Virus record (IMG/VR): IMGVR_UViG_3300046167_000292
Span: 1 to 28,546 of that record
DNA from: a virus
Length of the DNA: 28,546 nucleotides
Direction: 5' to 3' (one strand)
Shown: positions 10,657-28,546 of the stretch, in pieces
Position numbering within the stretch: the first letter of the stretch is position 1
Layout: the number at the start of each line of letters is the position of its first letter
The notes under the pieces: generated by a model
Database searches by the model: none
Seen by the model: only the letters and a program-made list of their open reading frames with translations
Told to the model about the DNA's origin: nothing
Translations under genes and position numbers: made by a program

Positions 10657-10658
10657 TT

Positions 10659-12119: not shown

Positions 12120-12131
12120 ATTATAAATACA

Positions 12132-12485: not shown

Positions 12486-12487
12486 TT

Positions 12488-12643
12488 ATGGACTTAAACT
12501 CGTTTAAACTTTACGTATTAAATTTGTCAGCTATTACAGTTAGTACAATGGATATATTAGAAGATAGCCTTAAAATACTTTTATTAGTAGTTACTATTGG
12601 TTATACTGTTCAAAAGTGGTACGAGTTAAAAAAGAAAAAGTGA
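12488..12643 (+). CDS. Small one-helix membrane protein, candidate holin/pinholin
   Basis: 51 residues, with a single hydrophobic helix around residues 24-42 (ILEDSLKILLLVVTIGYT) followed by a basic end WYELKKKK. Size, topology and position right before the M15 peptidase fit a small holin-type or accessory lysis protein. Its stop overlaps GTG 12640 of the peptidase. Confidence 0.55.
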   Translation: MDLNSFKLYVLNLSAITVSTMDILEDSLKILLLVVTIGYTVQKWYELKKKK

Positions 12644-13010: not shown

Positions 13011-13156
13011 GCATAGCAATCATATCTTTATTCCCTACTTCGTTTATAGGTGGTATATCTTACTATCCTAAAAATGCAGATTACCCATTTAATGAACTAA
13101 ACATATATTTGTTTTTGATACAGTTACAATTTAGAACTTATGAGCAAACCATTTAA
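13007..13156 (+). CDS. Small hydrophobic protein, 49 aa
   Basis: TTG start overlapping the peptidase stop; 49 residues with PTSFIGGISYYPKNADYPFN and a hydrophobic NELNIYLFLIQLQFRTYE end. The stop overlaps the holin start by 17 bases. Small proteins of this YYPK-(N)EL-hydrophobic type occur beside lysis genes in other phages, as I recall. No certain function. Confidence 0.4.
   Translation: MSIAIISLFPTSFIGGISYYPKNADYPFNELNIYLFLIQLQFRTYEQTI
13104..13111 (+). promoter_or_regulatory. Host-type -7 box TATATTTG upstream of the holin
   Basis: Fits TAnnTTTG, 28 bases before the holin ATG, but lies inside the small ORF at 13007 and lacks a TTTG -33 box. Low confidence. Confidence 0.25.
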
Positions 13157-13584
13157 AGATACTAAAGTAGGTAAGTTTCTAATAGGCGAGAAAGGTCTGT
13201 TTAAGAATTTAGCCCATACACTGCCCGACAAGGGCTTTTTAGGCGTTTTAAAGAACTTAATAGCTAAAGACAATAGTTTATCCCCATTTGAAAAAGAAAA
13301 GGCGTTAGAACTGCTTAAAATGGATATACTAGAAATGGAGCAGGTTACTGAAAGATGGGATAGCGATATGACATCTGATAGTTGGCTATCCAAAAACACT
13401 AGACCACTAACATTACTTTACTTAACATTTATGACTACTTTGTTTGTTATTTTAGATAGTAGTGATAGCCCTTTTAAAGTAGGAAGTGAATGGGTAGAAC
13501 TTCTTAAAACACTTCTTAGTTACTGTTTATGTTGCATATTTTGGCAGTAGAGGCTTTGAAAAATACAAAAAAATTACTAAATAA
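13140..13584 (+). CDS. Holin, 3TM type, with +1 frame break near the end
   Basis: 136 residues as the frame stands (ends 13550), 147 if a +1 shift after CTT CTT at 13512..13517 is allowed. Amphipathic N-terminal part, then WDSDMTSDSWLSKNTRPLTL, a hydrophobic helix (~89-106) and a second hydrophobic segment. In the +1 frame the second helix becomes VTVYVAYFGSRGFEKYKK, the typical end of the 3TM (GTA-type) holin family; in the zero frame it ends in a Cys-rich LCCIFWQ. The shifted ending is therefore the authentic one. It would permeabilise the inner membrane for the M15 enzyme. Confidence 0.7.
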
Positions 13585-13780
13585 TATATAGTTATATATA
13601 TATATATATAGTTATATATAATATTGATATATAGTATAACAAGTATATAACATATAACTACTATATAACACCTACTATATATAGCATATAACTATAAATA
13701 AAAACTACTATATAGCAGTTAGTATATATGTGTTCAAAACTATATTTTTAGATGTTTAGAAGTAGGCTTATCTTTGGCAT
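13585..13780 (+). other. AT-rich iterated region, candidate replication origin
   Basis: No gene. Extremely AT-rich. TATATAGTTATATATA occurs at 13585..13600 and 13605..13620; CTACTATATA at 13658..13667, 13672..13681 and 13705..13714; CATATAACTA at 13651..13660 and 13685..13694. It separates the late lysis genes from the first early gene. Clustered short repeats plus easily melted DNA fit an origin or a protein-binding regulatory region. No clear DnaA box seen. Confidence 0.45.
13769..13780 (+). promoter_or_regulatory. Early promoter, TATCTTTG box 4 bases before ATG
   Basis: TATCTTTG (13769..13776) matches the Bacteroidetes -7 consensus TAnnTTTG, and ATG 13781 follows after GCAT. The same layout occurs at 14469 and 14609. 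Expected transcription start is at or next to the ATG, so a leaderless mRNA is likely. The -33 position is only T-rich. Confidence 0.6.
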
Positions 13781-13993
13781 ATGATAGAAAACATATTAGC
13801 AGAACAACTAACAGACAATCAGAAGATAGACAAGCTACTAGAATTAGATTGCAACCTATATACAAATCTTGGGAGCGACAGTACAAAGACCGAGAAGCAA
13901 GAAGTAAAGCGTATGTCAAGAAAAATATATAAAGCAATACAGGGTATCAATGAGCCTATTGGTAAGTCTTTATTACAAGCTATGGATAAATGA
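13781..13993 (+). CDS. Early hypothetical protein, 70 aa
   Basis: First gene after the AT-rich block, directly under an early-type promoter. 70 residues, helical, charged, ending KIYKAIQGINEPIGKSLLQAMDK; no membrane segment or motif that I recognise. The stop overlaps the NinG-like start by 4 bases (ATGA), so the two are probably co-translated. Early position suggests a regulatory, takeover or replication-accessory role (inference). Confidence 0.6.
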   Translation: MIENILAEQLTDNQKIDKLLELDCNLYTNLGSDSTKTEKQEVKRMSRKIYKAIQGINEPIGKSLLQAMDK

Positions 13994-14352
13994 CTAGAAG
14001 CAAAATAGTTAAAAAGCTAGATAGTGTGTTCAGCCTATACATCCGCAATAGATTTGCAAACAATGGCAAAGCTGAATGTTTTACTTGTGGTAAAGTAGAT
14101 GATGTAAGTAGATTACACGCAGGACACTTTATGAGCCGTAAACACTATGCAACTAGATGGGATGAGGTAAACGTACAGGTACAATGTCCTAAATGCAATT
14201 TATTTGGTCAAGGAGAACAGTACACCTTTGGGCTTAATTTAGACAAAGAGTACGGAGAAGGTACAGCAGAAAAGTTACAACAAAAAGCTAGGGGTTTAGT
14301 TAAATTGTCAAATGATGACCTAAATGAGTTGATTGAAAAGTTTAAAGTATAA
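13990..14352 (+). CDS. ninG: NinG/Rap-like recombination protein
   Basis: 120 residues. Zinc-type motifs: C30xxC33 (FTCGK), H43xxH46 (RLHAGHF), then C66xxC69 (QCPKCN), with FMSRKHYATRWDEVNVQVQC between. This is the core of lambda NinG (Rap), a protein acting on Holliday junctions in recombination. It is shorter than lambda NinG and lacks its N-terminal part, as is common for the Bacteroidetes phage version. It may help resolve replication and packaging intermediates together with the nucleases at 17817..20267. Confidence 0.75.
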   Translation: MTRSKIVKKLDSVFSLYIRNRFANNGKAECFTCGKVDDVSRLHAGHFMSRKHYATRWDEVNVQVQCPKCNLFGQGEQYTFGLNLDKEYGEGTAEKLQQKARGLVKLSNDDLNELIEKFKV

Positions 14353-14368
14353 CCTGCGCTTGTAGGTT
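14351..14368. terminator. Short hairpin at the end of ninG
   Basis: AACCTGC and GTAGGTT pair (one wobble) around a GCTT loop, overlapping the ninG stop. There is no immediate T run on the + strand, so it is at best a weak terminator. A leftward RNA from the promoter at 14395..14425 would also meet it. Confidence 0.3.
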
Positions 14369-14394
14369 AGTCATAATCTTTGTTTTTGTTAGTA

Positions 14395-14425
14395 CAAATA
14401 TACAGCTTTTATTTTATTAACCAAA
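14395..14425 (-). promoter_or_regulatory. Leftward host-type promoter, TTTG-N19-TATATTTG
   Basis: On the minus strand TTTG (14425..14422), a 19-base spacer and TATATTTG (14402..14395) match both Bacteroidetes sigma-A elements with consensus spacing. It is the best complete promoter I find. Its upstream half, a 20-base string, is repeated at 23210..23229 on the + strand. Predicted start is near 14391, reading leftward across ninG. No minus-strand gene follows, only a 10-codon ORF (14382..14350). Confidence 0.55.
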
Positions 14426-14468
14426 TGTTTATAAAGTTTATTTATGTTTTTTATTAAAATATTTTTTG

Positions 14469-14480
14469 TAGCTTTGGCAT
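14469..14480 (+). promoter_or_regulatory. Early promoter, TAGCTTTG box 4 bases before ATG
   Basis: TAGCTTTG (14469..14476), then GCAT and ATG 14481. Same spacing as at 13769 and 14609. Drives the short terminated unit at 14481..14592. Confidence 0.6.
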
Positions 14481-14540
14481 ATGACATATAACGAGGATTT
14501 ATTACGGCTACGAGAAGCAGAAGCCGAAGCACTTCGTTAG
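14481..14540 (+). pseudogene. Truncated copy of the 14621 gene or leader peptide, 19 aa
   Basis: MTYNEDLLRLREAEAEALR, then TAG. The segment 14447..14531 repeats at 14587..14671 (85 bp, about five mismatches), promoter included. The ORF stops after 19 codons and the transcript would end at the terminator 14562..14592. It is either a decayed duplicate or a genuine short leader/small RNA of about 110 bases sharing its 5' part with the next mRNA. Confidence 0.55.
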
Positions 14541-14561
14541 TTCTCTATATGTTTGTTCGAA

Positions 14562-14592
14562 AAGGGGTTAGTTTTATTACTAGCCCTTTTTT
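14562..14592 (+). terminator. Rho-independent terminator between duplicated early promoters
   Basis: GGGTTAGT pairs with ACTAGCCC (one wobble) around TTTATT and is followed by six T. It ends the short unit that begins at 14480 and lies just before the second promoter copy. Confidence 0.8.
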
Positions 14593-14608
14593 ATTAAAAT
14601 ATTTTTTG

Positions 14609-14620
14609 TAAGTTTGCCTT
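14609..14620 (+). promoter_or_regulatory. Early promoter, TAAGTTTG box 4 bases before ATG
   Basis: TAAGTTTG (14609..14616), then CCTT and ATG 14621. Second copy of the duplicated promoter; bases around the TTTG differ from copy 1 but the consensus positions and spacing are kept. Likely drives the long early operon. Confidence 0.6.
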
Positions 14621-14752
14621 ATGACATATAATGAGGATTTATTACGGCTACGAGAAGCAGAAGCCGAAGCATTACGAAAAAAAGTAGAAATGCTTGAAGC
14701 AAAAATAGAGTTACTTACACAACAAATAATGACAAATGATATATACGAGTAA
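14621..14752 (+). CDS. Small coiled-coil early protein, 43 aa
   Basis: Leaderless-type start directly after an early promoter. 43 residues: an all-helical Leu/Glu/Arg/Lys heptad pattern across LLRLREAEAEALRKKVEMLE and the following KIELLTQQI, then a short TNDIYE end. Likely dimerises as a coiled coil. It overlaps the next ORF by 17 bases. First gene of the replication operon; function unknown. Confidence 0.5.
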   Translation: MTYNEDLLRLREAEAEALRKKVEMLEAKIELLTQQIMTNDIYE

Positions 14753-14891
14753 AGTAAAAACAGTAGTAAAAGGCGAAAGTTTCAGACTACCTGACGGAGT
14801 TACTATGAATAAATACACAGTAACATTCGCTAACGGACATAACCCTAATGTTTATTCTCCTAAAGAATTGACATTTAGTGAAGGGGGATGA
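14736..14891 (+). CDS. Small early protein, 51 aa
   Basis: 51 residues, with VKGESFRLPDGVTMNKYTVTF and VYSPKELTFSEGG, suggesting a small beta fold. It overlaps the genes on both sides (17 and 4 bases), as in a tightly coupled operon. No family recognised. Confidence 0.5.
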   Translation: MIYTSKVKTVVKGESFRLPDGVTMNKYTVTFANGHNPNVYSPKELTFSEGG

Positions 14892-15124
14892 AGGTTGAGT
14901 ATGATTTAGACCAAAATAAAAACAAGGCTAAAATACTAATGAAAAGCAGCGTAGCACCTGCTCCTAAAAACAACTATTCTAATCCTAAAGATGATGTACA
15001 ACGATACATTATAAGACAAAGCAGCTTAAATAGAGCAACTGACTTGTATGCAGGGAAAGAAATAAATACAACTGAAATAATAAATTTAGCACGTACATTT
15101 GAAAACTACGTGTTTAACGGATAA
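14888..15124 (+). CDS. Conserved replication-operon protein, 78 aa
   Basis: 78 residues. N-terminal charged stretch, then DDVQRYIIRQSSLNRATDLY and IINLARTFENYVFNG. The RQSSLxxA...A..FE pattern recurs, as I recall, in small proteins next to SSB/recombination genes of several phages. Its stop precedes the SSB-like gene by 11 bases. It may be part of the ssDNA-handling set; the biochemical role is unknown. Confidence 0.55.
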   Translation: MKVEYDLDQNKNKAKILMKSSVAPAPKNNYSNPKDDVQRYIIRQSSLNRATDLYAGKEINTTEIINLARTFENYVFNG

Positions 15125-15135
15125 AAATAAATATT

Positions 15136-15402
15136 ATGACTAAAACTTGGGTAGACGGATTGAGAATATTCGACAACAAACAGGAATGGATAGTTTGCGA
15201 CATTAAAATAAATGCAGACGAGATGATAAATTGGATTAACCAAAATAGAGCAAACGTAAATGAGCGTGGTTCTATTCCAATTACGATAGCTAAAAGTGAG
15301 AAAGGATTGTACTCAATGCTTAACACTTATGAAGTACAGAAGTCAAAGGAAGTAACAACAGCACAACATTCTCCTGACCGAGAAGCAGACTTGCCTTTCT
15401 AA
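15136..15402 (+). CDS. Putative single-stranded DNA-binding protein
   Basis: 88 residues. Beta-patterned core (WIVCDIKINADEMINWINQN, then GSIPITIAKSEKGLYSMLN) with aromatic residues suitable for DNA stacking, and a flexible tail ending in DREADLPF. An acidic tail ending in PF is the partner-binding tip of bacterial SSB proteins. It stops one base into the start of the replicative ATPase, fitting a replication role. No OB-fold signature can be confirmed by eye, so the assignment is inference from tail and context. Confidence 0.5.
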   Translation: MTKTWVDGLRIFDNKQEWIVCDIKINADEMINWINQNRANVNERGSIPITIAKSEKGLYSMLNTYEVQKSKEVTTAQHSPDREADLPF

Positions 15403-15614
15403 TGCTTATACAGCTAGACAATCACATAAAGAAGTTAGACGAATACCGAGCAGGGACTTTGAAAACAGGTCTCCGCTTGGGTATTCCTAGACTTGATGAA
15501 CACTTTAGGTTTAAGTATGGAGATTTTAATATCATACTAGGACACGCAAACGTAGGAAAAACATCTCTAGTCCTTATACCTAATGACACTATACGCTATG
15601 AAGCACGGCATTAA
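15402..15614 (+). CDS. RecA/DnaB-like replicative ATPase, N-terminal segment (frame-broken)
   Basis: Start of a RecA-fold ATPase of the phage helicase type: TLKTGLRLGIPRLDEHFRFK, then Walker A GHANVGKT (residues 47-54). After CTT 15573..15575 the coding sense moves +1 (skipping A15576), giving VLYLMTLYAMKHGIKWLVF. In the zero frame it ends after 12 further, non-conserved codons at TAA 15612. The full gene would run to 16140 and probably unwound DNA or loaded the host helicase. Confidence 0.7.
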   Translation: MLIQLDNHIKKLDEYRAGTLKTGLRLGIPRLDEHFRFKYGDFNIILGHANVGKTSLVLIPNDTIRYEARH

Positions 15615-15945
15615 ATGGCTTGTGTTTAGTAGTGAGAATGAGCCTTATTCTATTATAAGAAAAATAGTAGAATTTAGAGAGGGCAAACCAATAAACAAAA
15701 TAGAGGAAACACACTACAAGGAGCAAGTAAAGTGGATTAACGAACACTTTAAATTTATTGATGGTTCAAAGCTATACACTTACAAATCATTACTTGATTT
15801 AGCACAGCACGTAAAAAAGGCTTGGGATTATCAGGGTTTTTTATTAGACCCTTACAACTCACTAAACAAAGACAAAGATGTACTAAAAGGTATATCAGGA
15901 CACGAGTACGATTATCAAGCAACAAGCGAGATTAGAATATTCTGA
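15583..15945 (+). CDS. RecA/DnaB-like ATPase, central segment
   Basis: Continues the ATPase: KWLVFSSENEPYSIIRKIVE (the Walker-A-following strand with SSEN), then a helical region and a Walker B-like GFLLDPYNSL, as in phage DnaB-like proteins with DPYN. It stops at TGA 15943 directly after ATSEIRIF. The same frame continues behind the stop with the known C-terminal part. The catalytic middle expected after EIRIF (sensor strand with Asn-His and the ssDNA loop) is missing: an in-frame deletion whose junction codon became the stop. Confidence 0.7.
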   Translation: MTLYAMKHGIKWLVFSSENEPYSIIRKIVEFREGKPINKIEETHYKEQVKWINEHFKFIDGSKLYTYKSLLDLAQHVKKAWDYQGFLLDPYNSLNKDKDVLKGISGHEYDYQATSEIRIF

Positions 15946-16140
15946 TACATATACCATCCTGCTGATTGGATGTATTCACACTTGCATATTAAGAAGATTA
16001 AAGATGTAGACACAGGTGGCAGACCTACACCAATGGAAGACCCTATTAGACTAGAAAGCGTATTAAATAACGTAGGCTTTAACATAGAGGGTAAGAACCC
16101 TATACAATATCCTAAACGTGAGCAAACAGAACTGTTATGA
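15946..16140 (+). pseudogene. RecA/DnaB-like ATPase, C-terminal remnant
   Basis: Same frame as the previous segment, 64 codons then TGA: YHPADWMYSHLHIKKIKDVD, TGGRPTPMEDP and NVGFNIEGKNPIQYP. The HPxDWM...H(I/V)xKIKxxxTGG run is the usual end of this ATPase family, as I recall. No start codon of its own. Its stop overlaps the methyltransferase ATG by 4 bases, so it was once translated to the end. Confidence 0.6.
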
Positions 16141-16751
16141 TTACTTGTGAGGATAATATGGAACTAATGGCAAGGTATGAAGATAATTACTTTGACCTTG
16201 CTATTGTAGACCCACCTTATGGTATTGATAAATTACTATATAGGAGTAGTTATGGTGGTTGTGTTGGAGGATTGACTAAATACTCTAAAAATAGGTGGGA
16301 TAAAGAAACACCAACTGATAAATATTTTATAGAGTTGATTAGAGTTTCAAAAGAACAGATTGTTTGGGGTGGTAATTACTTTCCTATACTTTGGGAAAAA
16401 AGTTGCAGAGGTTTAATAACGTGGGATAAAATGGTTTATCTTCCTACAATGAGCCAAGTAGAATACGCTTGGTATTCAAAAGATAAATTACCACAACTTG
16501 TAAAAATAAATAACAATGATAGCAATAGGTTGCACCCAACGCAAAAACCGATAGCTTTATACGAATGGTTACTTACGAACTATGCAAAAGAGGGCGATAA
16601 GATTTTAGATACTCATTTAGGAAGTGGTTCAATAGCTATTGCCTGTCATAATTTAGGCTTTGACCTTACGGCTTGTGAACTTGATAAAGAGTATTACGAT
16701 GCAGCAATAAAACGAATAGACAACCACAAAAACCAACAAAGACTATTTTGA
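16137..16751 (+). CDS. DNA methyltransferase (N6-adenine or N4-cytosine, beta-type order)
   Basis: 204 residues. Catalytic motif IV DPPYG (25-29) comes first and the SAM-binding motif I DTHLGSGS (158-165) last, with HPTQKP (133-138) just before it: the beta-class order. DPPY favours N6-adenine methylation. The small target-recognition region (about 40-130) is short. It modifies phage DNA, probably to escape host restriction, or acts in regulation. No matching restriction endonuclease neighbour is obvious, although PD-(D/E)XK proteins lie at 17817 and 18544. Start overlaps the ATPase stop (ATGA). Confidence 0.85.
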   Translation: MITCEDNMELMARYEDNYFDLAIVDPPYGIDKLLYRSSYGGCVGGLTKYSKNRWDKETPTDKYFIELIRVSKEQIVWGGNYFPILWEKSCRGLITWDKMVYLPTMSQVEYAWYSKDKLPQLVKINNNDSNRLHPTQKPIALYEWLLTNYAKEGDKILDTHLGSGSIAIACHNLGFDLTACELDKEYYDAAIKRIDNHKNQQRLF

Positions 16752-17245
16752 TAACCGACATACTAACAAGCAAACATAATAAATGGATAAGTTATTGCCG
16801 TAGTTGGGGGTGTAATCCTGACACATCAGAGGACTTGGTACAAGAGATGTATCTTAAACTCCTAGTGCTTATACAGAACGGAATAGATATCTCGTATAAA
16901 GACGATATAAACGACTTTTATATTTATAAGGTGCTTCGTAGTATGTTTTTAGATTTATGTCGTAAGGAGCAACGTACACAAGTTGTAGACCTAACAGACG
17001 ATTACATAAAACACCTAATAGAAGAAAAGACAAAGGTAGAACTTGAAGATGAAAAGATATTTGAAGAAGCCTTTGACAAAGTAAACCAAGCATTAAATGA
17101 GATGCATTGGTACGACAAAAAGGTATTTGAACTTGTACAGGACACTAACAATATATCAGCACTATCTAGGGAAACTAACATAGAGTATAGAAGCCTTTAC
17201 AATACCTATCAGAAAGTTAAACGCAAAATAAAAGAGAAATTATGA
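16748..17245 (+). CDS. Sigma-70-like factor A
   Basis: 165 residues. Residues ~10-76 look like sigma region 2: NKWISYCRSWGCNPDTSEDL, then VQEMYLKLL, then YIYKVLRSMFLDLCRKEQR. Residues ~115-162 look like region 4: LNEMHWYDKKVFEL, then a helix-turn-helix ISALSRETNIEYRSLYNTYQ with basic KVKRKIKEKL. The size and two-domain layout are those of ECF-type sigma factors. It would redirect host RNA polymerase, plausibly to the CGTTATANTTATA late promoters. Overlaps its neighbours by 4 bases on both sides. Confidence 0.7.
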   Translation: MITDILTSKHNKWISYCRSWGCNPDTSEDLVQEMYLKLLVLIQNGIDISYKDDINDFYIYKVLRSMFLDLCRKEQRTQVVDLTDDYIKHLIEEKTKVELEDEKIFEEAFDKVNQALNEMHWYDKKVFELVQDTNNISALSRETNIEYRSLYNTYQKVKRKIKEKL

Positions 17246-17820
17246 TTGAACAAATATATAGAGATAGAAAAAAATGGTTAAGAATTGCAATGAGTTTTGG
17301 ATTAAACAAACAAGACGCTGAAGATGTATTAAGCCATATGTATTTAAAAATTTATCAAAAATTAAAAAAAGGTTATGATATATCTTACGAAGATGGTTAT
17401 AATCATATGTATGTATATAAAGTTATTAAGTCAAAGTATATAGATTTATATAGAAAAAAACGAAGAATAAAAACTATGCTTTCTATGCGATTTGACAATG
17501 ATGGGGATGTAGTTTTTTTACATAGTGATGGTCAAAGGCATATGAAAACAAAGCCTAAAAAAATTAGAGCAGAAAAAAATTTAGATTATGATTTATTTAG
17601 CAATGAATACAAAAAAATACTTAATAAATTAAAAAACAACAAAAACAGTAGTTTATACAAATTACAGCAACACGTACACTATTTTGAAGAAATAAACAAT
17701 ATGGAAAAACCAAGCTTTACAAATTATTGTAAATTAAATAATGTAAAATACAGGGAGGTATATAACGGTTACCATATAGTTAAAGATATTTTAAAAAATG
17801 AAATGTTAGAATTAATATGA
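17242..17820 (+). CDS. Sigma-70-like factor B, paralogue of A
   Basis: 192 residues, homologous to the previous gene. Region 2: KKWLRIAMSFGLNKQDAEDV, then HMYLKIYQKLKKGYDISYED and YVYKVIKSKYIDLYRKKRR. The shared pattern is ED...MYLK...G.DISY.D...YVYKV...DL.RK.R. A ~70-residue insertion with basic and His residues follows, then a region-4-like helix-turn-helix (SFTNYCKLNNVKYREVYNGY). It looks more AT-rich than factor A, so the pair may be an old duplication or a separate acquisition. It may recognise a different promoter class or antagonise A. Confidence 0.6.
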   Translation: MIEQIYRDRKKWLRIAMSFGLNKQDAEDVLSHMYLKIYQKLKKGYDISYEDGYNHMYVYKVIKSKYIDLYRKKRRIKTMLSMRFDNDGDVVFLHSDGQRHMKTKPKKIRAEKNLDYDLFSNEYKKILNKLKNNKNSSLYKLQQHVHYFEEINNMEKPSFTNYCKLNNVKYREVYNGYHIVKDILKNEMLELI

Positions 17821-18221
17821 CTAATAAATTTGAACAGGACTTAAAGAATGGTCAAGAGTATGAGAAGAAAGCCTTGTTGCTTATTCAGGAAAAATACCCT
17901 AATGCCTACATAATAGACGGTTACTGTTTAGATTGGGATATATATATTCCTGAATTAAAAATAGGTGTTGAAGTTAAAAGCGATGCGCAATATAAAGTAA
18001 CAGGTAATTTCTATGTAGAGTATTTTTGTAACGGTAAGCCAAGTGGTATCTCTACTACAAAGGCTGACATATATTATATATATTTAGATAAACTTTATAT
18101 AGTTAAAACAGAAGATTTAAAAGCAAAATGCAGAAAATACATAAACACAGATAGAGATAAAAAAGGTGGAGATAATATGGCTAGTAAAGGAATTATACTA
18201 CCAATAAATGAGTTATTATGA
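17817..18221 (+). CDS. PD-(D/E)XK nuclease-like protein
   Basis: 134 residues. Core LDWDIYIPELKIGVEVKSD gives D41, E52 and K54 in the D...ExK arrangement, with E14 in an upstream helix, followed by the strand NFYVEYFCNGKPSGISTTKA. Known as a phage-encoded nuclease-fold protein; possibly a junction- or branch-processing enzyme. Overlaps factor B by 4 bases and the next small gene by 4. Specific substrate unknown. Confidence 0.65.
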   Translation: MTNKFEQDLKNGQEYEKKALLLIQEKYPNAYIIDGYCLDWDIYIPELKIGVEVKSDAQYKVTGNFYVEYFCNGKPSGISTTKADIYYIYLDKLYIVKTEDLKAKCRKYINTDRDKKGGDNMASKGIILPINELL

Positions 18222-18343
18222 GATTAGGAGATTTAGTATATTACATTACAAAGTACACAGGTATAAGATATGTTTACAAAAAGATATATCCTGACTGTGG
18301 GTGTGATGACCGTAGAAAGAAGTGGAACGACATAGAACTATAA
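18218..18343 (+). CDS. Small Cys-containing protein, 41 aa
   Basis: 41 residues with GDLVYYITKYTGIRYVYKKI and PDCGCDDRRKKWN. A GD(L/V)xxxITxxTGIxxVxK...CGCDxRxxKxN pattern is frequent in small Bacteroidetes phage proteins in my recollection; role unknown. The CGC could be a metal site. Overlaps the previous stop by 4 bases. Confidence 0.5.
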   Translation: MRLGDLVYYITKYTGIRYVYKKIYPDCGCDDRRKKWNDIEL

Positions 18344-18344
18344 T

Positions 18345-18566
18345 ATGCCAAAAGGAAAAATGAGCCAACACCAAGTATCACAATGGCAGGTGTTTCTTGC
18401 TACACTTGGAAACAAACTAACAAACGAGCAGTATAAATTTGTATGTGAGGTACACGCTGATTTATTTGCACACCCTTACCACGAGCCTTGTACGTGCAGC
18501 CCAAAACGTATAAAAGAATGGATAGCACAAATAACAAGGATATATGAAACTGGACTTAATACATAG
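18345..18566 (+). CDS. Small protein with CTCSP motif, 73 aa
   Basis: 73 residues: QWQVFLATLGNKLTNEQYKF, then VCEVHADLFAHPYHEPCTCS with PKRIKEWIAQI. His and Cys residues (H48, H52, C55, C57) could form a metal site. The helical pattern with a C-terminal KxWI is conserved in small phage proteins I have seen, with no assigned function. Overlaps the next gene by 23 bases. Confidence 0.5.
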   Translation: MPKGKMSQHQVSQWQVFLATLGNKLTNEQYKFVCEVHADLFAHPYHEPCTCSPKRIKEWIAQITRIYETGLNT

Positions 18567-18957
18567 TTTTGAGAAAGCCCTAGTTACTGCACTTAACCTT
18601 GATGGTTGGAGGCTGGTACATACAGGAGAAACAAATTTACCATACGATGCACAGGGAATAAGTCCGAAAGGACACAAGGCTGTAATCGAAATGAAATTCC
18701 GAGATAAGTACTATGAAACCAAAATACTAGAGGTTGGTAAGTATAACAATCTTATGAAGATGGATAGCGATATTCAGAAGTTTTACTTTGTAAATGACCC
18801 TAAAGGAAACTATATGTTTTGGCTAAATGACTTAAAGGATTTAAAGAAGGAAGAACTGTATTGTCCTAAAACTACAATGTGGAACACCAACAAACAAAAT
18901 AAAAGTGTATATTTGTTACAAGAGAAACAAGCTATAATAACAAACATATATGAATAA
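18544..18957 (+). CDS. Second PD-(D/E)XK nuclease-like protein
   Basis: 137 residues. LPYDAQGISPKGHKAVIEMK gives D35, E49 and K51 in a D...ExK arrangement, after a helix containing HSFEKALVTAL. This is compatible with the restriction-endonuclease fold; the C-terminal half (FYFVNDPKGNYMFWLNDL) looks like the remaining core strands. A substrate cannot be deduced. ATG 18544 overlaps the preceding gene; no closer start keeps the first helix. Confidence 0.5.
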   Translation: MKLDLIHSFEKALVTALNLDGWRLVHTGETNLPYDAQGISPKGHKAVIEMKFRDKYYETKILEVGKYNNLMKMDSDIQKFYFVNDPKGNYMFWLNDLKDLKKEELYCPKTTMWNTNKQNKSVYLLQEKQAIITNIYE

Positions 18958-19102
18958 TAAAGATTTTATTGCTATGAGTTGGGAAGAACGCATAGACTAT
19001 TTTAGAGGTGTAGGGTTAAGAACTACATTTAATATTGCTATGGATGATGACCATCCCTTATGCATAGATGCAAACGATTACCTAGACGAAAAGAATGAAT
19101 AA
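18950..19102 (+). CDS. Small acidic protein, 50 aa
   Basis: 50 residues, acidic, with MSWEERIDYFRGVGLRTTFN and a C-terminal DDDHPLCIDANDYLDEKNE. Such a highly acidic end could mimic DNA or bind a basic partner; this is inference only. Overlaps both neighbours by 8 bases. Confidence 0.5.
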   Translation: MNNKDFIAMSWEERIDYFRGVGLRTTFNIAMDDDHPLCIDANDYLDEKNE

Positions 19103-19229
19103 GAAACGAGCAAGTCAATCAGCAAGAATACAAGAACTAGAACAGCATATAGTTAAAATATATATGATACTAGAACAAGTAGTAGAACAGCTAAAAAACA
19201 AGGATGAACAGGGAACTACTAAAACTTAA
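19095..19229 (+). CDS. Small coiled-coil protein, 44 aa
   Basis: 44 residues: basic start MNKKRASQSARIQELEQHIV, then a leucine/isoleucine heptad helix to EQLKNK. Probably dimeric. Overlaps the following gene by 26 bases. No family recognised. Confidence 0.4.
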   Translation: MNKKRASQSARIQELEQHIVKIYMILEQVVEQLKNKDEQGTTKT

Positions 19230-19479
19230 ATTTCAAGGAGATTTTACAGCAGCTTCACACATTATACAGAAGTGGTTAGAGAAAAGCCCTGACAACAAAG
19301 AACTGAAACACGTTACAGAGTATTTGACAAACTCCTATATTTATGCAACAGCTTGTGAGATGCAAATAAAAGAAGCCAATGCAATCATAAACAGATTAAG
19401 AGAGAAGCGAGATAAGTATAAAGACCTTGCAGACGATTACAAAGAACTATACGAGAAACTACAAGAGAAAACATTATAA
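19204..19479 (+). CDS. Coiled-coil protein, 91 aa
   Basis: 91 residues, helical throughout, with KFQGDFTAASHIIQKWLEKS followed by a long charged coiled coil (KEANAIINRLREKRDKYKDL to KLQEKTL). No membrane segment. Immediately before the exonuclease gene; could be a recombination partner, by position only. Confidence 0.5.
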   Translation: MNRELLKLKFQGDFTAASHIIQKWLEKSPDNKELKHVTEYLTNSYIYATACEMQIKEANAIINRLREKRDKYKDLADDYKELYEKLQEKTL

Positions 19480-19493
19480 CAAACATATAGATT

Positions 19494-20267
19494 ATGATAA
19501 CATTACTAAACGGAGAGAAGTGGGATAGGCAAGAGTTACTATCTAAAATGGATGATGATAGCTTTTACTATGGGCATTTAGGTAAACACGCATTAAGTAG
19601 CAGCAGCATTAAATTGTTACAGACAAGCCCAAAAAAATATCACTACATTACAAAGTACAGCAAGAACGAAACTTCACCTGCTTTACGTGCAGGGCATTTA
19701 TTCCACACAGCTATACTAGAGCCTGAAAAATACAGCGAGATAAAATTCATAGACGTACAAAGTAGAAACGCTAAAAAGTTTAAGGAAGCAGTAGAGGAGT
19801 ATGGAGAATGTTTTACAGCAAAAGAGCGTAGCGAAAACGAAAGGTTAATAGATGCTTTCTTTAAGAACGAACAAGCCTTACAACTTATTACTGATTGTCA
19901 AACAGAAGTACCTGCTATTGGTAATATAGATATGATGCCATTTAGAGGCAAAGCAGATGTATTGAGTAGCAGAGGTATCGTTGACCTTAAGACATCAACA
20001 GACGTGAAATCTTCATTCCCTTATTCAGCTCGAAAATACGGTTATGATATTCAAGTTTATATATACTGCCAACTATTCAACATACCTTACACAGAGTTTA
20101 CGTTTATAGCTTTAGACAAAGGCACACTAGACATAGCGATATACGATGTATCAGAGGACTTCTATTTAGAGGGAGAACGCAAAACACTAGAAGCAATAGA
20201 CAGATACAAGATGTTCTTTATAGAAGATGCAGACCTAGATAGTTACACATTAAGAGGTACGCTATGA
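19494..20267 (+). CDS. PDDEXK-type exonuclease (RecE/exodeoxyribonuclease VIII-like)
   Basis: 257 residues. SSSSIKLLQTSPKKYHY and AGHLFHTAILEPE (67-78), followed by RGKADVLSSRGIVDLKTS with D155, D164 and K166, then the helix YDIQVYIYCQLF. This is the layout of the RecE-like PDDEXK family: the conserved G(x)HxLxLEP helix, D...DxK active site and QxxxY motif. It would make 3' single strands for recombination with the SSB-like and NinG-like proteins. Its end overlaps the next small gene by 4 bases. Confidence 0.8.
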   Translation: MITLLNGEKWDRQELLSKMDDDSFYYGHLGKHALSSSSIKLLQTSPKKYHYITKYSKNETSPALRAGHLFHTAILEPEKYSEIKFIDVQSRNAKKFKEAVEEYGECFTAKERSENERLIDAFFKNEQALQLITDCQTEVPAIGNIDMMPFRGKADVLSSRGIVDLKTSTDVKSSFPYSARKYGYDIQVYIYCQLFNIPYTEFTFIALDKGTLDIAIYDVSEDFYLEGERKTLEAIDRYKMFFIEDADLDSYTLRGTL

Positions 20268-21716: not shown

Positions 21717-22079
21717 ATGTACGACACTAAAGAACTAGAAAGAAAATCACTAGAAGCCATTAAAGAGCATAAGCTGATGTTTATAGAACACGTAGTTGCT
21801 TATTTACCCTGTTCAAAGCCTACTTTTTATGAGCATAAACTTAACGAACTTAACAGCATAAAAAAGGCAATAGAAGAAAATAGAACTGTTAAGAAAGTAG
21901 CGTTACTTAATAATTGGATTACAACTGAAGCTGCACCTGTATTGCAAATAGCAGCTATGAAGATGATTAGTAGTGATGAAGAAGCGCACAGGCTAAATGG
22001 TACAAAGCGTGAGATAAAGCACGACACAAAACAAAAGAGTTTTAAGGTAGAAGTGATTGACCACAATACAAGTAAATAA
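21717..22079 (+). CDS. Terminase small subunit
   Basis: 120 residues. Helix-turn-helix-like start: LEAIKEHKLMFIEHVVAYLP followed by CSKPTFYEHKLNELNSIKKA, a central helix and a Lys-rich end. The Bacteroidetes-phage type of small terminase, which recognises phage DNA for packaging. It immediately precedes and overlaps (23 bases) the large subunit. It has the candidate late promoter 32 bases upstream. Confidence 0.7.
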   Translation: MYDTKELERKSLEAIKEHKLMFIEHVVAYLPCSKPTFYEHKLNELNSIKKAIEENRTVKKVALLNNWITTEAAPVLQIAAMKMISSDEEAHRLNGTKREIKHDTKQKSFKVEVIDHNTSK

Positions 22080-23208
22080 AGTATACAACCATCTAACCAA
22101 CTCTAATAAGAAGATAACATTAGAAGTAGGTGGAACTAGGAGCGGTAAGACATACAATGTTCTACTGTGGATTATTCTACACTATTGCCAACACAACGAA
22201 AACAAAACGATTACTATATGCCGTAAGACATTCCCTGCTGTACGTGCTACTGTAATGCGAGACTTCCTAGAGATACTCAAACGTATGGACTTATACGATG
22301 AACAGCACCACAATAAGAGCAACCACGAGTATAAGCTAGACAGTAACCTCATAGAGTTTATATCATTAGACCAACCACAAAAGGTAAGAGGACGTAAAAG
22401 AGATTTACTTTTCGCCAATGAGATGAATGAACTGACATTTGAAGATTGGCAGCAGTTGGTATTTAGAACAACAGACAAGATAGTAGGAGACCTTAACCCT
22501 TCTGATGAGTACCATTGGATATGGGAGAAGCTAGAGCAAAGGGAAGATGTAGAAATATACAACACTACCTACCTAGACAATCCATTCCTAGACGATAGCA
22601 TAAGAAGCGAGATAGAACTACTAAAAGACACAGATGAGAACTATTGGAGAATATATGGACTTGGACAAAGAGCAATATCTAAAGCAACTATATTCAAATA
22701 CACGGAGATTGATAGCATACCTGACGATGCACAGCTTGTGGCTTATGGGATGGACTTTGGATTTAACGACCCTACTACACTTGTTGCAACATACAAGAAA
22801 GACCACAACCTATACTTTAAAGAAATGCTATACAGGTCAAAGATGACAACAGAGGACATACACCAATATCTAAAAGGAGTAGAGGTATTAGGTATGACTT
22901 ATGCAGATAGCGCAAGACCTGAAATAATAGAACAGTTGCGTAGATACGGACACAAAGTAATGAAGTCTTATAAAGGTGCTAATTCTGTACTAGCAGGGAT
23001 AGACCTACTTAAAAGGTATAAACTCCACGTAACAAAGGATAGCGAGAATATGATAAAAGAATTCAGAAGCTATAAGTGGAAAGAAGATAGAGCAGGTAGA
23101 ATAACTAACGTACCTGAAGATTTACACAACCACACACTTGATGCAGCTAGGTACTCCTGCTACTCTATATTAAGTAAACCTAACTTTGGTAAGTATTACA
23201 TACATTAG
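22057..23208 (+). CDS. Terminase large subunit
   Basis: 383 residues. Walker A GGTRSGKT (25-32), Walker B LLFANE (117-122), then the RNase H-like nuclease with MDFGFNDP (232-239), ADSARPE (D284) and HTLDAARY (D362). ATPase and nuclease domains of the packaging motor are both complete. TTG 22057 is the only suitable start ahead of Walker A (the previous frame codon is a stop). Somewhat short compared with lambda-type terminases but normal for this group. Ends at a possible promoter region (23210..23251). Confidence 0.9.
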   Translation: MTTIQVNKVYNHLTNSNKKITLEVGGTRSGKTYNVLLWIILHYCQHNENKTITICRKTFPAVRATVMRDFLEILKRMDLYDEQHHNKSNHEYKLDSNLIEFISLDQPQKVRGRKRDLLFANEMNELTFEDWQQLVFRTTDKIVGDLNPSDEYHWIWEKLEQREDVEIYNTTYLDNPFLDDSIRSEIELLKDTDENYWRIYGLGQRAISKATIFKYTEIDSIPDDAQLVAYGMDFGFNDPTTLVATYKKDHNLYFKEMLYRSKMTTEDIHQYLKGVEVLGMTYADSARPEIIEQLRRYGHKVMKSYKGANSVLAGIDLLKRYKLHVTKDSENMIKEFRSYKWKEDRAGRITNVPEDLHNHTLDAARYSCYSILSKPNFGKYYIH

Positions 23209-23253: not shown

Positions 23254-23453
23254 CTTTAAAACAAACATTATGAAACGTAAGATAGAAAACTTTATATTTG
23301 ACACAATTATATACGTAGCTGCTTTTGGACTAGTATGCACGTTTTGCCAACTATGCGCACACGCTGATAAATGGATGGGGTTATGAAAGATTTAAAACTT
23401 TTTATAGTGGTTATTCTGACACTAACATTTTTAGTTTGGTCTAAACATTACTT
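23254..23453 (+). repeat. 200-bp direct repeat, copy 1
   Basis: Identical to 23622..23821 apart from three substitutions (ATT/ATA, CTA/TTA, GCA/GCT), all synonymous in the small membrane gene. Spans the leader, the complete 38-aa gene and the first 23 codons of the next gene. Confidence 0.9.
23270..23386 (+). CDS. Small membrane protein, copy 1, 38 aa
   Basis: MKRKIENFIFDTIIYVAAFG followed by LVCTFCQLCAHADKWMGL: basic N-terminus, one hydrophobic helix, three Cys near its end. An almost identical copy lies at 23638..23754 (all three differences silent or outside codon meaning). Stop overlaps the next start (ATGA). Unknown function. Confidence 0.55.
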   Translation: MKRKIENFIFDTIIYVAAFGLVCTFCQLCAHADKWMGL

Positions 23454-23559
23454 TGAAAGCTTACAAGGCAAAGGATTAACAGGAAGACAAATACTTGATG
23501 AAACTGCATTGTTTAGAGAAAGATGGGAAGAAACCAATTACCTAAGGAATAAAAAATAA
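23383..23559 (+). CDS. Small membrane-anchored protein, 58 aa
   Basis: ATG 23383 overlaps the previous stop, a better start than the in-frame ATG at 23371. Residues 4-20 form a hydrophobic helix (LKLFIVVILTLTFLVW), followed by a charged soluble tail with GLTGRQILDETALFRERWEE. Type II anchor topology likely. Its first 23 codons are repeated at 23751. Function unknown. Confidence 0.55.
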   Translation: MKDLKLFIVVILTLTFLVWSKHYFESLQGKGLTGRQILDETALFRERWEETNYLRNKK

Positions 23560-23607
23560 CCACTAACACTTATGGTTTACCTGAAATAAAAACTACATAA
23601 AAAAACA

Positions 23608-23621
23608 GGGGAGCAATCCCC
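23608..23621 (+). terminator. Hairpin before the second repeat copy
   Basis: GGGGA pairs with TCCCC around a GCAA tetraloop (GNRA type). Only three T follow, so it is a weak terminator or an mRNA-stabilising hairpin. It ends the first copy of the cassette. Confidence 0.45.
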
Positions 23622-23821
23622 CTTTAAAACAAACATTATGAAACGTAAGATAGAAAACTTTATATTTGACACAATAATATACGTAGCTGCTTTTGGATTA
23701 GTATGCACGTTTTGCCAACTATGCGCTCACGCTGATAAATGGATGGGGTTATGAAAGATTTAAAACTTTTTATAGTGGTTATTCTGACACTAACATTTTT
23801 AGTTTGGTCTAAACATTACTT
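23622..23821 (+). repeat. 200-bp direct repeat, copy 2
   Basis: Offset 368 from copy 1. Breaks off inside the second gene, where unrelated sequence begins after TTACTT. Confidence 0.9.
23638..23754 (+). CDS. Small membrane protein, copy 2, 38 aa
   Basis: Same protein as at 23270 (differences are synonymous). The retained coding sense suggests either recent duplication or selection on both copies. Stop overlaps the next start as in copy 1. Confidence 0.55.
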   Translation: MKRKIENFIFDTIIYVAAFGLVCTFCQLCAHADKWMGL

Positions 23822-24259: not shown

Positions 24260-24274
24260 CGTTATATTTATATG
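24260..24274 (+). promoter_or_regulatory. Candidate phage late promoter, copy 4 (tail operon)
   Basis: CGTTATATTTATATG is fused to ATG 24272. The gap from the upstream terminator nearly equals that at 6033..6056, suggesting a standard terminator/late-promoter joint. Confidence 0.6.
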
Positions 24275-24916
24275 AAGTATGAATTAAACGTACCTACAAG
24301 CCTAAACGAGATTACTCTTGGTCAATACCAACAGTATCTTAAACTACCTGAAGGCTTAACTGAAAACCAAGTAGCACTTAAAATGGTGGGTATCTTCTGC
24401 CAAGTGCCTGACACAGTTGTAAGAAACATCAAAGCTGCCGACATACAAACAATAGTAGCAACCCTTACAAAGATGTTCGAGGACACTCCTGCACTAACAA
24501 GAGAGTTTAAGCTAAACGGCAAACGATACGGCTTTATACCTAACCTAGACGATATGTCTTTTGGGGAATACATAGACATAGACACATACTTGGGGGATTG
24601 GGATAACATAGAGAAAGCTATGGCAGTCCTTTATAGACCCGTACAGGGCAGTTATGACAAATTATACAACATAGAGCCATACGAAGCTAAAGATGCCCTA
24701 GAGTACAAGCATATGCCTTTAGGAGTTGTATTAGGTTCTATTGTTTTTTTTTACAATTTAGGGAGCGAATTGTGTCAGGTTATGATGGATTATTCACTCA
24801 ATCAGGAAATGACCTATCAACAGAAGCAAACTTTGGAGCAAAGTGGGGTTGGTATCAATCAATATACGGATTGGCTCAAGGAGACGTTACAAGATTTGAA
24901 AATATCACTAAACTAA
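24272..24916 (+). CDS. Tail assembly chaperone (gpG-like)
   Basis: 214 residues, soluble. LNVPTSLNEITLGQYQQYLK, then a helical domain with GDWDNIEKAMAVLYRP, and an end NQYTDWLKETLQDLKISLN. This is the usual first tail gene before the tape measure, coating it during assembly. A run of nine T at 24744..24752 reads GTT TTT TTT TAC in frame, a T TTT TTT slippery site; a -1 slip yields a 242-residue fusion with the next ORF, as in lambda G/GT. Both frames downstream look coding. Confidence 0.7.
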   Translation: MKYELNVPTSLNEITLGQYQQYLKLPEGLTENQVALKMVGIFCQVPDTVVRNIKAADIQTIVATLTKMFEDTPALTREFKLNGKRYGFIPNLDDMSFGEYIDIDTYLGDWDNIEKAMAVLYRPVQGSYDKLYNIEPYEAKDALEYKHMPLGVVLGSIVFFYNLGSELCQVMMDYSLNQEMTYQQKQTLEQSGVGINQYTDWLKETLQDLKISLN

Positions 24917-24999
24917 ATATGCACGAATGTTTATATGCATTAGAGTTTATGAAAGAGAAAAACGAATTAGAAGCAAAAAGAATTAAACGAAATGGCTAA
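24772..24999 (+). CDS. Frameshift extension of the tail chaperone (T-like part)
   Basis: The -1 frame is open from upstream of the slippery site to TAA 24997. Its conserved-looking core is FGAKWGWYQSIYGLAQGD, then VTRFENITKLNMHECLYALE and FMKEKNELEAKRIKR. KWGWYxSIYxLAxGDxxRFxxIT is typical of tail chaperone extensions in Bacteroidetes phages, in my recollection. No ATG starts this frame; GTG 24772 is possible, but expression as a -1 fusion is more likely. It overlaps the main gene for ~145 bases, so that stretch is dual-coding. Confidence 0.7.
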   Translation: MSGYDGLFTQSGNDLSTEANFGAKWGWYQSIYGLAQGDVTRFENITKLNMHECLYALEFMKEKNELEAKRIKRNG

Positions 25000-25459
25000 T
25001 ACAGCAGTAAGAGGTTTTTACCTAATCACGCAAACTATAAAAGACCAACTACTATTGGATGAAAATGTCAATACGGTTACAACAGGAGATTTAACAGAGA
25101 TAGACTTATCCAAGCAAACTATATTCCCATTGTCGCACGTTATCATAAACAGCGCAACCATACAAGAACAAGTAATTAGATTTAACATCACAGTCCTAGC
25201 TATGGATGTTGTAGACTTTAGTAAAGAAGAAACAACAGATATATTTATAGGCAACAACAACGAGCAAGATGTACTTAACACACAACTAGCAGTTTTAAAT
25301 AGATTGTTTGGATTGTTAAGACAAGCAGACGTTAGCGATGTGTACTCACTTGATAGCGACCCTAGCTGTGAGCCGTTCTATGACAGATTTGAGAACGAAC
25401 TAGCAGGGTGGAGTACAACCTTTGACATAACTATTCCTAATGACATATACCTATGCTAG
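24992..25459 (+). CDS. Tail completion / minor tail protein
   Basis: 155 residues. RGFYLITQTIKDQLLLDENV, then TTGDLTEIDLSKQTIFPLSH and strand patterns, with a final FENELAGWSTTFDITIPND. Small alpha/beta tail-terminator or completion type, in a conserved spot between chaperone and gp10-like protein. Overlaps the preceding frame by 8 bases and the next ATG by 7. Confidence 0.6.
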   Translation: MANTAVRGFYLITQTIKDQLLLDENVNTVTTGDLTEIDLSKQTIFPLSHVIINSATIQEQVIRFNITVLAMDVVDFSKEETTDIFIGNNNEQDVLNTQLAVLNRLFGLLRQADVSDVYSLDSDPSCEPFYDRFENELAGWSTTFDITIPNDIYLC

Positions 25460-25960
25460 ACAATACAGAGGATATATTAAGAGGGCTTTGCCAAGAGGGT
25501 TATACAGCAATCTAGGACACGACTAACTAAAGGCAAAAAGAATAGTAGTAAGGAATTATACAACAGCCTTAAATACGACCTTAAAACCTCTGCGAATGCA
25601 TTTATACTAAACTTCTTTATGGAAGAATATGGTATTTATCAGGACAAGGGTGTAAGTGGTACTAAAAAGAAATACAACACACCATTTAGTTATAAGGATA
25701 AGATGCCTCCACCACAAGCATTAGACAAGTGGTTAGTGAGAAAAGGTATTAAAGGAGTAAGAAACGAACAAGGGCAATTTATAAAGAGAAAGAGTTTACA
25801 GTATCTAATGGCTAGAAGTATATTTAGAAAGGGTATTAAGCCAAGCAATTTCTTTACAAAGAGTTTTGAACAAGCATTTGACAAACTACCAAAAGAGTTA
25901 GTAGATGCATACAAATTAGATTTAGAAGAATTTTTAACATCAGCGACAAGTGGCAACTAA
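25453..25960 (+). CDS. HK97 gp10-like tail/head-tail joining protein (frame-broken)
   Basis: ATG 25453 gives MLDNTEDILRGL, then an extra T (25489, after CTT 25486..25488) shifts the frame; in +1 it continues AKRVIQQSRTRLTKGKKNSS and into EEYGIYQDKGVSGTKKKYN, ARSIFRKGIKPSNFFTK. About 168 residues when repaired. The YGxYxDxGVxG...IKPSNFFT pattern is that of gp10-like neck/tail completion proteins. The portion 25619..25960 is open as it stands. Confidence 0.65.
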
Positions 25961-27122
25961 AATAAACGTAAGAAGTCCATATTATGTAAAAGCAAGTAAT
26001 GCTAGTTTGGCATCAGCTACTTTAAGCCTGTATATATACACAGGTACATTTACAACGGATAAGGGAACAGCTAAATACACAATAACTAAAAACGAGATAA
26101 GCAGTAACAACTATGTTGTTTTTGAAATTGCAGAACTTGTAAGGGATTACCTAGATATAGAGTTTGATGGAGAGTACGACAGTCAAACCGTATGGGTTGA
26201 AGCTGATATAGAGATGTTTGATGCTATCAATGGTGGTGGTTCTAGTTTAGGCACAACAAGCACAGACTATATAGCTTTTGACGGTTACGGATATTTTGAA
26301 GATGCTATCAATCCTGAATTAAGTAGAACGTACCTACAAAGTAATTACAAAATATTCAGACCTAGTGACCAAAATGTTAGAGTACCTGTATTCACAGAGG
26401 ACACAGATAGCGTTTCTTTTCTATACAAAGGAGAGGTAAAACGAGTACAAAGCATAAGCAGTAGCACAAACACTAACGGACAAATAGACTACATCACAGT
26501 ATCAGGTGCTGACAATACAGACAATTACAAAGAACGTGTATTAGCAGACGGTGGTGTACTTGAAGACAATAGCCTTTTAGATGCGTTTTTAGACAGCGTA
26601 GACATAGGCTTGGTAGATGAACTATATATCAATTCAGATAGTGGCACAGAAGCCGTTAAAATAAGCACAGAGCCTTGTTCAAAGTATGAGCCTTACAAAG
26701 TTACGTTTATTAACAAGTTTGGTGCATTACAGGATATGTACTTTAGCCTTAAAAGCACATCGAGCCTAAACACAAAAGGCGAAACCTACAAATCAAATGT
26801 AGTAGACTTTGGCACACTAACATACGACACTTACAAACCACAAGTAAGCCAATATAACAAAATGGGTAAGGAAAGTATTTCACTAAACACTAACTACCTA
26901 TCAGAAGAATATAACGAAGTAATAAAACAGCTTATGATGTCAGAGCAAGTATGGCTTACTAGACTAGACAATCCTGCACCTGATAGCAACAACCTAGAAA
27001 CCGTATTAGCTGTAATACCCAAGACACAAAGTGTAACATACAAAACAAGCCTTAATGATAGACTTGTACAATATACAGTAGACTTTGATTATGCTTTTGA
27101 TAAAATAAACACAGTAAGATAG
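25950..27122 (+). CDS. Distal tail / baseplate protein
   Basis: 390 residues, beta-rich, from GTG 25950. NVRSPYYVKASNASLASATL at the start, ELVRDYLDIEFDG, then a middle with FRPSDQNVRVPVF, and DMYFSLKSTSSLNTKGETYK followed by a compact C-terminal strand region. No enzyme motif. Position just before the next tail gene and the tape measure suggests a distal tail or hub component. Stop overlaps the next GTG. Confidence 0.55.
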   Translation: MATKINVRSPYYVKASNASLASATLSLYIYTGTFTTDKGTAKYTITKNEISSNNYVVFEIAELVRDYLDIEFDGEYDSQTVWVEADIEMFDAINGGGSSLGTTSTDYIAFDGYGYFEDAINPELSRTYLQSNYKIFRPSDQNVRVPVFTEDTDSVSFLYKGEVKRVQSISSSTNTNGQIDYITVSGADNTDNYKERVLADGGVLEDNSLLDAFLDSVDIGLVDELYINSDSGTEAVKISTEPCSKYEPYKVTFINKFGALQDMYFSLKSTSSLNTKGETYKSNVVDFGTLTYDTYKPQVSQYNKMGKESISLNTNYLSEEYNEVIKQLMMSEQVWLTRLDNPAPDSNNLETVLAVIPKTQSVTYKTSLNDRLVQYTVDFDYAFDKINTVR

Positions 27123-27769
27123 TGGTTATACAATTATACATAGAAGGGCAAAGGGTTGAGTTATTTAAAGACGAAAGTGTTACTATAACTGACAGTATCC
27201 AAAACGTAAAGGATATAGGTTCTATATTTACAGCCTTTAGTCAATCTTTTAATGTACCTGCAAGTAAGACTAATAATAAAATATTTAAGCACTATTATAA
27301 TTATGATATTGATTTAGCATATTCTTTCAATGCTAATGATTTAGTTTCAGGGATTATAGAACTAAACAACCTGCCATTTAGGAAAGGTTTTATAGGGCTT
27401 GATGGTGTTACATTAAAAAACAACAAAGCACACTCGTACAAAATTACATTCTTTGGAGAAACAGTAGATTTAAAAACAAAACTAAAAGAGACTAAATTAA
27501 GTACAGTGTTTCAGGGAGTTACTACTTATGACCACGAGTACGGAGTATCAACTGTAAAAACAGGATTAGAAAGTAGTTTAGCAAGTGGAGCAATAAGATA
27601 CCCTTTAATATCACACACAGAAAGATTATTCTTTGATAGTGGTACGCATATTGCTAATGACCGTAATTTACATTATGATACAGGGGGTGGCGGTGGTGGT
27701 TCACATAATCACGGTATAAGATACAATGACTTAAAACCTGCTATAAAATTAAGTACCTATTGTAGATGA
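27122..27769 (+). CDS. Distal tail/baseplate hub-like protein, N-terminal segment
   Basis: 215 residues as it stands. IQLYIEGQRVELFKDESVTI, then IFTAFSQSFNVPASKTNNKI and KHYYNYDI; beta-rich, virion-type. A Gly run (GGGGGGSHNHG) precedes NDLKPAIKLST. An extra T at 27758 (ACC T ATT) breaks the frame; the +1 continuation IVDEIENFTGLTFTSGASDD joins the next segment. Full gene 27122..28319, about 399 residues when repaired. Confidence 0.6.
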   Translation: MVIQLYIEGQRVELFKDESVTITDSIQNVKDIGSIFTAFSQSFNVPASKTNNKIFKHYYNYDIDLAYSFNANDLVSGIIELNNLPFRKGFIGLDGVTLKNNKAHSYKITFFGETVDLKTKLKETKLSTVFQGVTTYDHEYGVSTVKTGLESSLASGAIRYPLISHTERLFFDSGTHIANDRNLHYDTGGGGGGSHNHGIRYNDLKPAIKLSTYCR

Positions 27770-27788
27770 GATAGAAAACTTTACAGGA

Positions 27789-28319
27789 TTGACTTTTACA
27801 AGTGGAGCAAGTGATGACTTTTTTGACGAAACTAATAATCCTTTGTGGGGTACTTTATATTTATGGTTAAGCGGCTACTGTACTGACAAAGACCAAAACC
27901 CTATTAACATAGACCCTCTTATTTTAAATATAACAAACGAAACTTTAACAGCAGGGCATTATTTAAGTTTTTACAATGGTACAAGTACAGGCACAGCAGC
28001 AGGTTTAACTACATATAATAGACCATCTAATACATACGGCACAAGTCAATCTTTAAGTTTTGGCACAGAGATAGACGAGTACACAGGACTAGCAGAAGAT
28101 GATAGCTTATTTGAGAACTACTATAAGAATTATATTGTAGATACTTTCAATGCTAAAAGAAGATTAGTAAAAGTAAAAGCATTTTTGCCATTAAGGATAT
28201 TGTTAAACTATCAGCTTAATGATGTATTTATTATAAATGGTAGGGAGTATATTATAAACAGCGTAAACACAAACCTGCTAACAGGCAAAAGTGATTTAGA
28301 ACTATTAAACAAGCTATGA
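27789..28319 (+). CDS. Distal tail/baseplate hub-like protein, C-terminal segment
   Basis: Continues from the break at 27758; real coding starts at 27759, upstream of TTG 27789. It contains SGASDDFFDETNNPLWGTLY, LSGYCTDKD and an end RILLNYQLNDVFIINGREYI followed by NSVNTNLLTGKSDLELLNKL. The last part resembles a DUF-type strand found at the end of baseplate hub proteins. Overlaps the next small ORF by 4 bases. Confidence 0.6.
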   Translation: MTFTSGASDDFFDETNNPLWGTLYLWLSGYCTDKDQNPINIDPLILNITNETLTAGHYLSFYNGTSTGTAAGLTTYNRPSNTYGTSQSLSFGTEIDEYTGLAEDDSLFENYYKNYIVDTFNAKRRLVKVKAFLPLRILLNYQLNDVFIINGREYIINSVNTNLLTGKSDLELLNKL

Positions 28320-28462
28320 TAAAAAATATACTAGATTTATTAGAATTAGCAAAAGGAGAAACAGAGAACATCCGTATAGCACAAGGTAAGTATCATTTGC
28401 CTAGTGGGTTAATGGGTGCAGGTAAAAAAATTAAAAGAGAAGCGAAATGGCAGAAAAAATAA
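28316..28462 (+). CDS. Small protein before the tape measure, 48 aa
   Basis: 48 residues: MIKNILDLLELAKGETENIR, then GKYHLPSGLMGAGKKIKREA and a basic end. Helical and basic; starts in the previous stop (ATGA) and overlaps the tape measure start by 16 bases. Possibly a minor tail or chaperone-type peptide; not recognised. Confidence 0.5.
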   Translation: MIKNILDLLELAKGETENIRIAQGKYHLPSGLMGAGKKIKREAKWQKK

Positions 28463-28546
28463 TTATAGACCTAGAAGCAAAAACTGACAAAGCCTTAAAA
28501 GGCATACAGGATTTATCGCAAGAGGTTGGAGATTTAAATAAAGAAG
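28447..28546 (+). CDS. Tape measure protein, N-terminal part (continues at base 1)
   Basis: ATG 28447 opens MAEKIIIDLEAKTDKALKGI then QDLSQEVGDLNKE and reaches the last base in mid-codon (G). Adding bases 1-2 (TA) completes Val, and the sequence goes on AKGNKQTEEGLKGVESASK in frame into 3..1637. It is a continuous coiled coil, as expected for a tape measure N-terminus. Confidence 0.85.
   Translation, partial: MAEKIIIDLEAKTDKALKGIQDLSQEVGDLNKE

Follow-up and report, generated by a model that had tools for sequence, protein, structure and literature searches.

Virus record IMGVR_UViG_3300046167_000292, analyzed here in its entirety over 28,546 bases (the window), ends within a tape-measure open reading frame (ORF) that seems to continue at its first base. 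The question was whether the whole of a circular or permuted phage genome is contained in the window, as an earlier note made from the letters alone had proposed, or a piece of a larger genome with two ends that happen to share a reading frame.

Tape-measure gene at the record ends

On the + strand, the ORF starting with ATG at 28447 runs for 33 codons plus one base up to 28546. Joining 28546 to base 1 completes a Val codon, with G from 28546 and TA from bases 1 and 2, and creates a single tape-measure ORF of 578 amino acids with a stop codon ending at 1637. The 5′ part of the gene (28447 to 28546) and the 3′ part up to the stop (1 to 1637) behave as the earlier note had described, with the frame running off the end, base 1 continuing the codon, and the frame remaining open to 1637. 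The joined protein of 578 residues gave PHROG tape-measure matches, and neither of the remaining two + strand frames was open across the 28546/1 join.

The weight that such an open frame deserves was estimated from the cut points of the window, with the right-hand side of the join held fixed. Of same-strand cut points, 22% gave an in-frame join preceded by an ATG at a distance of at least 33 codons, as did 12% of all cut points. With nearly all coding sequence of this phage on the same strand, the open frame by itself counts as modest evidence, and the statement that an in-frame join would be unlikely by chance was too strong. No exact end repeat was found in the window, including one of the identical kind, at least 20 bases long, by which CheckV judges a record (PMC8116208). 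Closure was therefore assessed from relatives instead of reads.

Continuity of the join in related viruses

An IMG/VR scan with the joined protein yielded 107 encoding loci from viral contigs. Locus L002 encodes residues 1 to 578 with 100% identity, and five further loci cover the same residues at 93 to 97% identity, each of these loci, L002 included, having one open frame of 582 codons. Nucleotide alignments to relatives' loci crossed the join in 44 cases, and a 65-base sequence built from both window ends had an exact copy in L002. Homologues with the two parts of the gene apart, which the earlier note had named as evidence against its own proposal, were also looked for, and the parts adjoined without a gap in all relatives covering the join.

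The relative used as the reference map was G002 (IMGVR_UViG_3300046733_000124; loci L003, L082, and L083), a record of 29,651 bases with an exact 127-base end repeat and hence a closed circle with a unit of 29,524 bases. The length of this repeat suggests an assembler k-mer; the CheckV authors considered k-mers on circular or concatemeric genomes the likely source of end repeats with specific odd lengths, among them 55, 77, and 99 (PMC8116208). The window was fully colinear with G002 around the whole circle, with 92 to 98% nucleotide identity over most of the genome, and window positions 28546 and 1 corresponded to G002 positions 27965 and 27966. As the window ends fall on neighboring G002 bases, no sequence is missing or doubled at the join. 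Judged by these alignments, homology, unlike the frame alone, lifts the join far above chance, with 44 alignments running through it and complete identity in L002.

Contig ends and packaging

In near-full-length relatives, the start and end of the contig coincided on the G002 map, at a different site in each of them. The start and end positions were 6513 and 6512 for G011, and 14765 and 14871 for G007, which has a 105-base end overlap at 99%. Approximate positions, extrapolated from translated hits and matching to within 100 to 260 bases, were 24813 and 24562 for G009, 17423 and 17160 for G014, 1662 and 1772 for G015, and 959 and 1121 for G019. Joined ends lacking any overlap were continuous with relatives in the window (52 relatives), G011 (40 relatives), G014, and G009. 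The core of the earlier proposal, a complete circular or permuted genome, is thus borne out by ends that are adjacent in relatives and by colinearity with G002 all around. On this comparative evidence, closure is real, and the window is complete in extent, going once around a circular map.

One relative, G017 (loci L102 to L103; 36,293 bases), overruns a single turn, its final 6.1 kb matching its start at 92 to 96% identity with an offset of 29,336 bases. It is probably an over-long assembly that went once around and then into another strain.

The large terminase subunit, TerL, belongs to Terminase_3 (PF04466/PF17288), a family that includes headful terminases, and the solved sequences nearest to it include 5oe8/5oea and 2wbn. 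Headful cutting is described for T4, SPP1, and P22, and the G20c nuclease has been likened to those of headful phages (PMC5389553). The TerL matches, together with the scattered contig ends, make headful packaging of permuted DNA likely. A headful terminase would then cut concatemers into linear virion DNA with terminal redundancy and circular permutation; reads from such permuted DNA would tile around the circle with no unique end. The assembler probably closed the circle, trimmed the overlap, and placed the opening at an arbitrary site within the tape-measure gene.

Two other explanations of the record ends were weighed against this one. The window might be a linear fragment, its ends in the same frame by accident, with more genome between them, and the missing end repeat, the chance of about 0.12 to 0.22 for an in-frame join, and the length of G002, a complete relative about 1 kb longer than the window, would all agree with that. 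In relatives, however, nothing additional lies at the join, G002 places both end bases side by side, and its extra kilobase sits elsewhere, chiefly at window 27871/27872, which brings a linear fragment close to refuted and leaves it exceedingly unlikely. Alternatively, the genome could be linear with fixed direct terminal repeats or cohesive ends, the circle being an assembly artifact. Linear genomes with end repeats, or concatemer intermediates, can indeed yield circular contigs (PMC8116208; PMC8862349), and the genome of the Nonlabens (Persicivirga) phage P12024L was deposited as linear with its start just 5′ of the protease gene. Against fixed ends stand the TerL matches to headful-type terminases and the absence of a common end, as the well-placed contig ends of relatives all differ and the closed ones open at different points, weak evidence though the ends of metagenome contigs are. 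Fixed ends were considered unlikely.

The explanation that best covers the whole, and that we regard as very probably correct, is that the window represents one turn of the circular map of a tailed marine Flavobacteriaceae phage, opened by the assembler; the virion DNA is likely permuted and packaged by the headful mechanism. A record lacking end repeats, and otherwise liable to be filed as linear and possibly partial, thereby turns out to be a full genome turn, and comparison with relatives can prove closure without reads. As G011, G014, and G009 look alike in this respect, such records may be more complete than they are taken to be.

Gene content and relationship to known phages

The earlier note had also stated that the full gene set appears once around the circle with nothing obvious missing. 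The core modules were indeed all present, namely, terminase, portal, protease, capsid, tail, tape measure, lysis, and DNA genes; the statement did not hold for gene integrity, as five genes are frame-broken, 319 codons are gone, and 500 bases of the protease gene are doubled.

Following the tape-measure gene on the + strand are the prohead protease (1668 to 2591; PF14550, Peptidase_S78_2), the major capsid protein (4428 to 5348), assigned from its position and from a P12024L homologue that adjoins the portal gene of that phage, and the portal gene (6430 to 8221), which lies in four pieces over three frames and is a single intact frame in most relatives. Variable tail fiber or lectin-like genes (8831 to 12119, +; Laminin_G_3) share 32 to 46% amino acid identity with the fiber genes of G002. 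This region, with two to four mutually similar genes, is the most variable part of the genome, and contigs of relatives often break there. The lysis genes comprise a frame-broken endolysin (M15 peptidase) and a holin (12616 to 13550, +), and the replication and DNA genes NinG, helicase, methyltransferase, and exonuclease lie at 13990 to 20267 (+). TerL (22057 to 23208, +; PF04466 and PF17288) matches solved terminases including 5oe8 and 2wbn. A 120-amino-acid ORF just 5′ of it (21717 to 22079, +) had no family match in searches and is a small-terminase candidate by its position. Between TerL and the tape measure, the tail module (24272 to 28319, +; genes at 24272, 24992, 25619, 25950, 27122, and 27789) follows the order found in P12024L.

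P12024L and P12024S, of the genus Inhavirus, have the same circular gene order as the window: protease, capsid, portal, fiber, endolysin, holin, DNA genes, TerL, tail, and tape measure. In the P12024L record, protease, capsid, and portal stand at the left, and TerL, tail, and the tape-measure homologue at the right. In contrast to the window, P12024L measures 35.7 kb, its proteins are 28 to 49% identical to those of the window, and its replication genes are different ones (primase, ERF, and glucosyltransferase). In a nearest-phage DNA search with window positions 1 to 20000, only 71 bases of the methyltransferase gene aligned to P12024L, at 94%. With so short a nucleotide alignment and such protein identities, the window is too distant to be placed in Inhavirus.

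Homologues of the capsid and tail genes in cultured phages occurred in P12024L/S, and those of part of the tape measure in Cellulophaga and Tenacibaculum phages, which points to a marine flavobacterial host. The joined tape-measure protein found nothing in 84,980 species genomes, and no prophage form. Group 1 of Nishimura et al. 2017 (PMC5332604), putative Flavobacteriaceae phages, unites the two Persicivirga phages with about 150 environmental circular genomes, and its members carry portal and prohead protease homologues, as does the window. The window adds a new member to the P12024L-like marine flavobacterial phage group. Its biology is ordinary and of a known kind, that of a tailed phage of marine Flavobacteriaceae with a genome of roughly 29 kb.

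G002 differs from the window in having other fiber genes and no methyltransferase at the place corresponding to 16137 to 16751, and in G003 the methyltransferase is located 3′ of the exonuclease gene. This distribution marks the methyltransferase as a mobile or exchanged gene. Adjacent to it, two neighboring genes at 16748 to 17245 and 17242 to 17820 resemble sigma-70 region 2, with weak sub-cut-off Pfam matches. The latter lies in a stretch missing from G002, G003, G005, and G007; a translated match between the two showed 29% identity. A Bacteroidetes-type promoter motif (TANNTTTG) considered at the 14447 to 14676 repeat was dropped, as it showed no clear enrichment in the window, with 53 occurrences observed versus 44 expected, and one versus 1.9 for the two-box version.

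Frame breaks and rearrangements

Compared to G002, in which the genes are intact, the portal, helicase, holin, endolysin, and 27122 tail genes are frame-broken in the window. The portal gene is broken three times, with pieces whose protein sequences still match G002 at 97 to 100% identity. Eleven core genes were compared across 18 genomes, and the window, G009, G011, and G014 had frame breaks, whereas G002 and the others had none. These are the same records whose ends join cleanly without overlap.

In addition, the tail gene has a sharp junction at 27871/27872 (+), where the window is 957 bases (319 codons) shorter than G002; additional sequence at this site also occurs in other relatives, in lengths divisible by three (975 and 981). 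A 500-base extra copy of 1945 to 2444 from the protease gene, 95% identical, occupies 3302 to 3801 (+). This insert is absent from relatives, G002 among them, and separates two bases that adjoin each other in L039.

Taken at face value, all of these changes, the frame breaks, the 957-base deletion, and the 500-base duplication, would be real features of a truly defective or rearranged genome, with no assembly errors. In its favor, sharp edges without clear microhomology bound both the deletion and the duplication. This explanation nevertheless appears quite unlikely, since the pieces of a portal gene broken three times remain almost identical to the G002 protein, the edges of the deletion and of the insertion were found in no other viral contig searched, and the pattern of frame breaks is common to other overlap-free closed records. 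That the rearrangements are real and mark a still-packaged defective or recombinant genome, in which the protease gene is duplicated in part and a tail gene shortened, was judged very unlikely. The preferred explanation is that the window is complete in extent, yet not a gene-perfect sequence, with breaks that are apparent errors or gaps. Long-read assembly would give both frame-breaking single-base indels and overlap-free closed ends, and we infer such an origin for the window. Homopolymer errors as the sole cause of the frame breaks were rejected, since runs of at least four identical bases contain few of the short indels. A closed circle is not equal to a correct sequence, which should serve as a warning for records of this type.

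Further minor differences were observed. At 15944/15945, 174 bases of the helicase gene are lost compared to G002 and G003. The short tandem duplications at 14447 to 14676 and 23254 to 23821 were considered as a fixed terminus and dismissed, as relatives have one copy of each and contig ends do not cluster at these sites. The second of them consists of a 200-base direct repeat (23254 to 23453 and 23622 to 23821) at 99% identity with two small ORFs.
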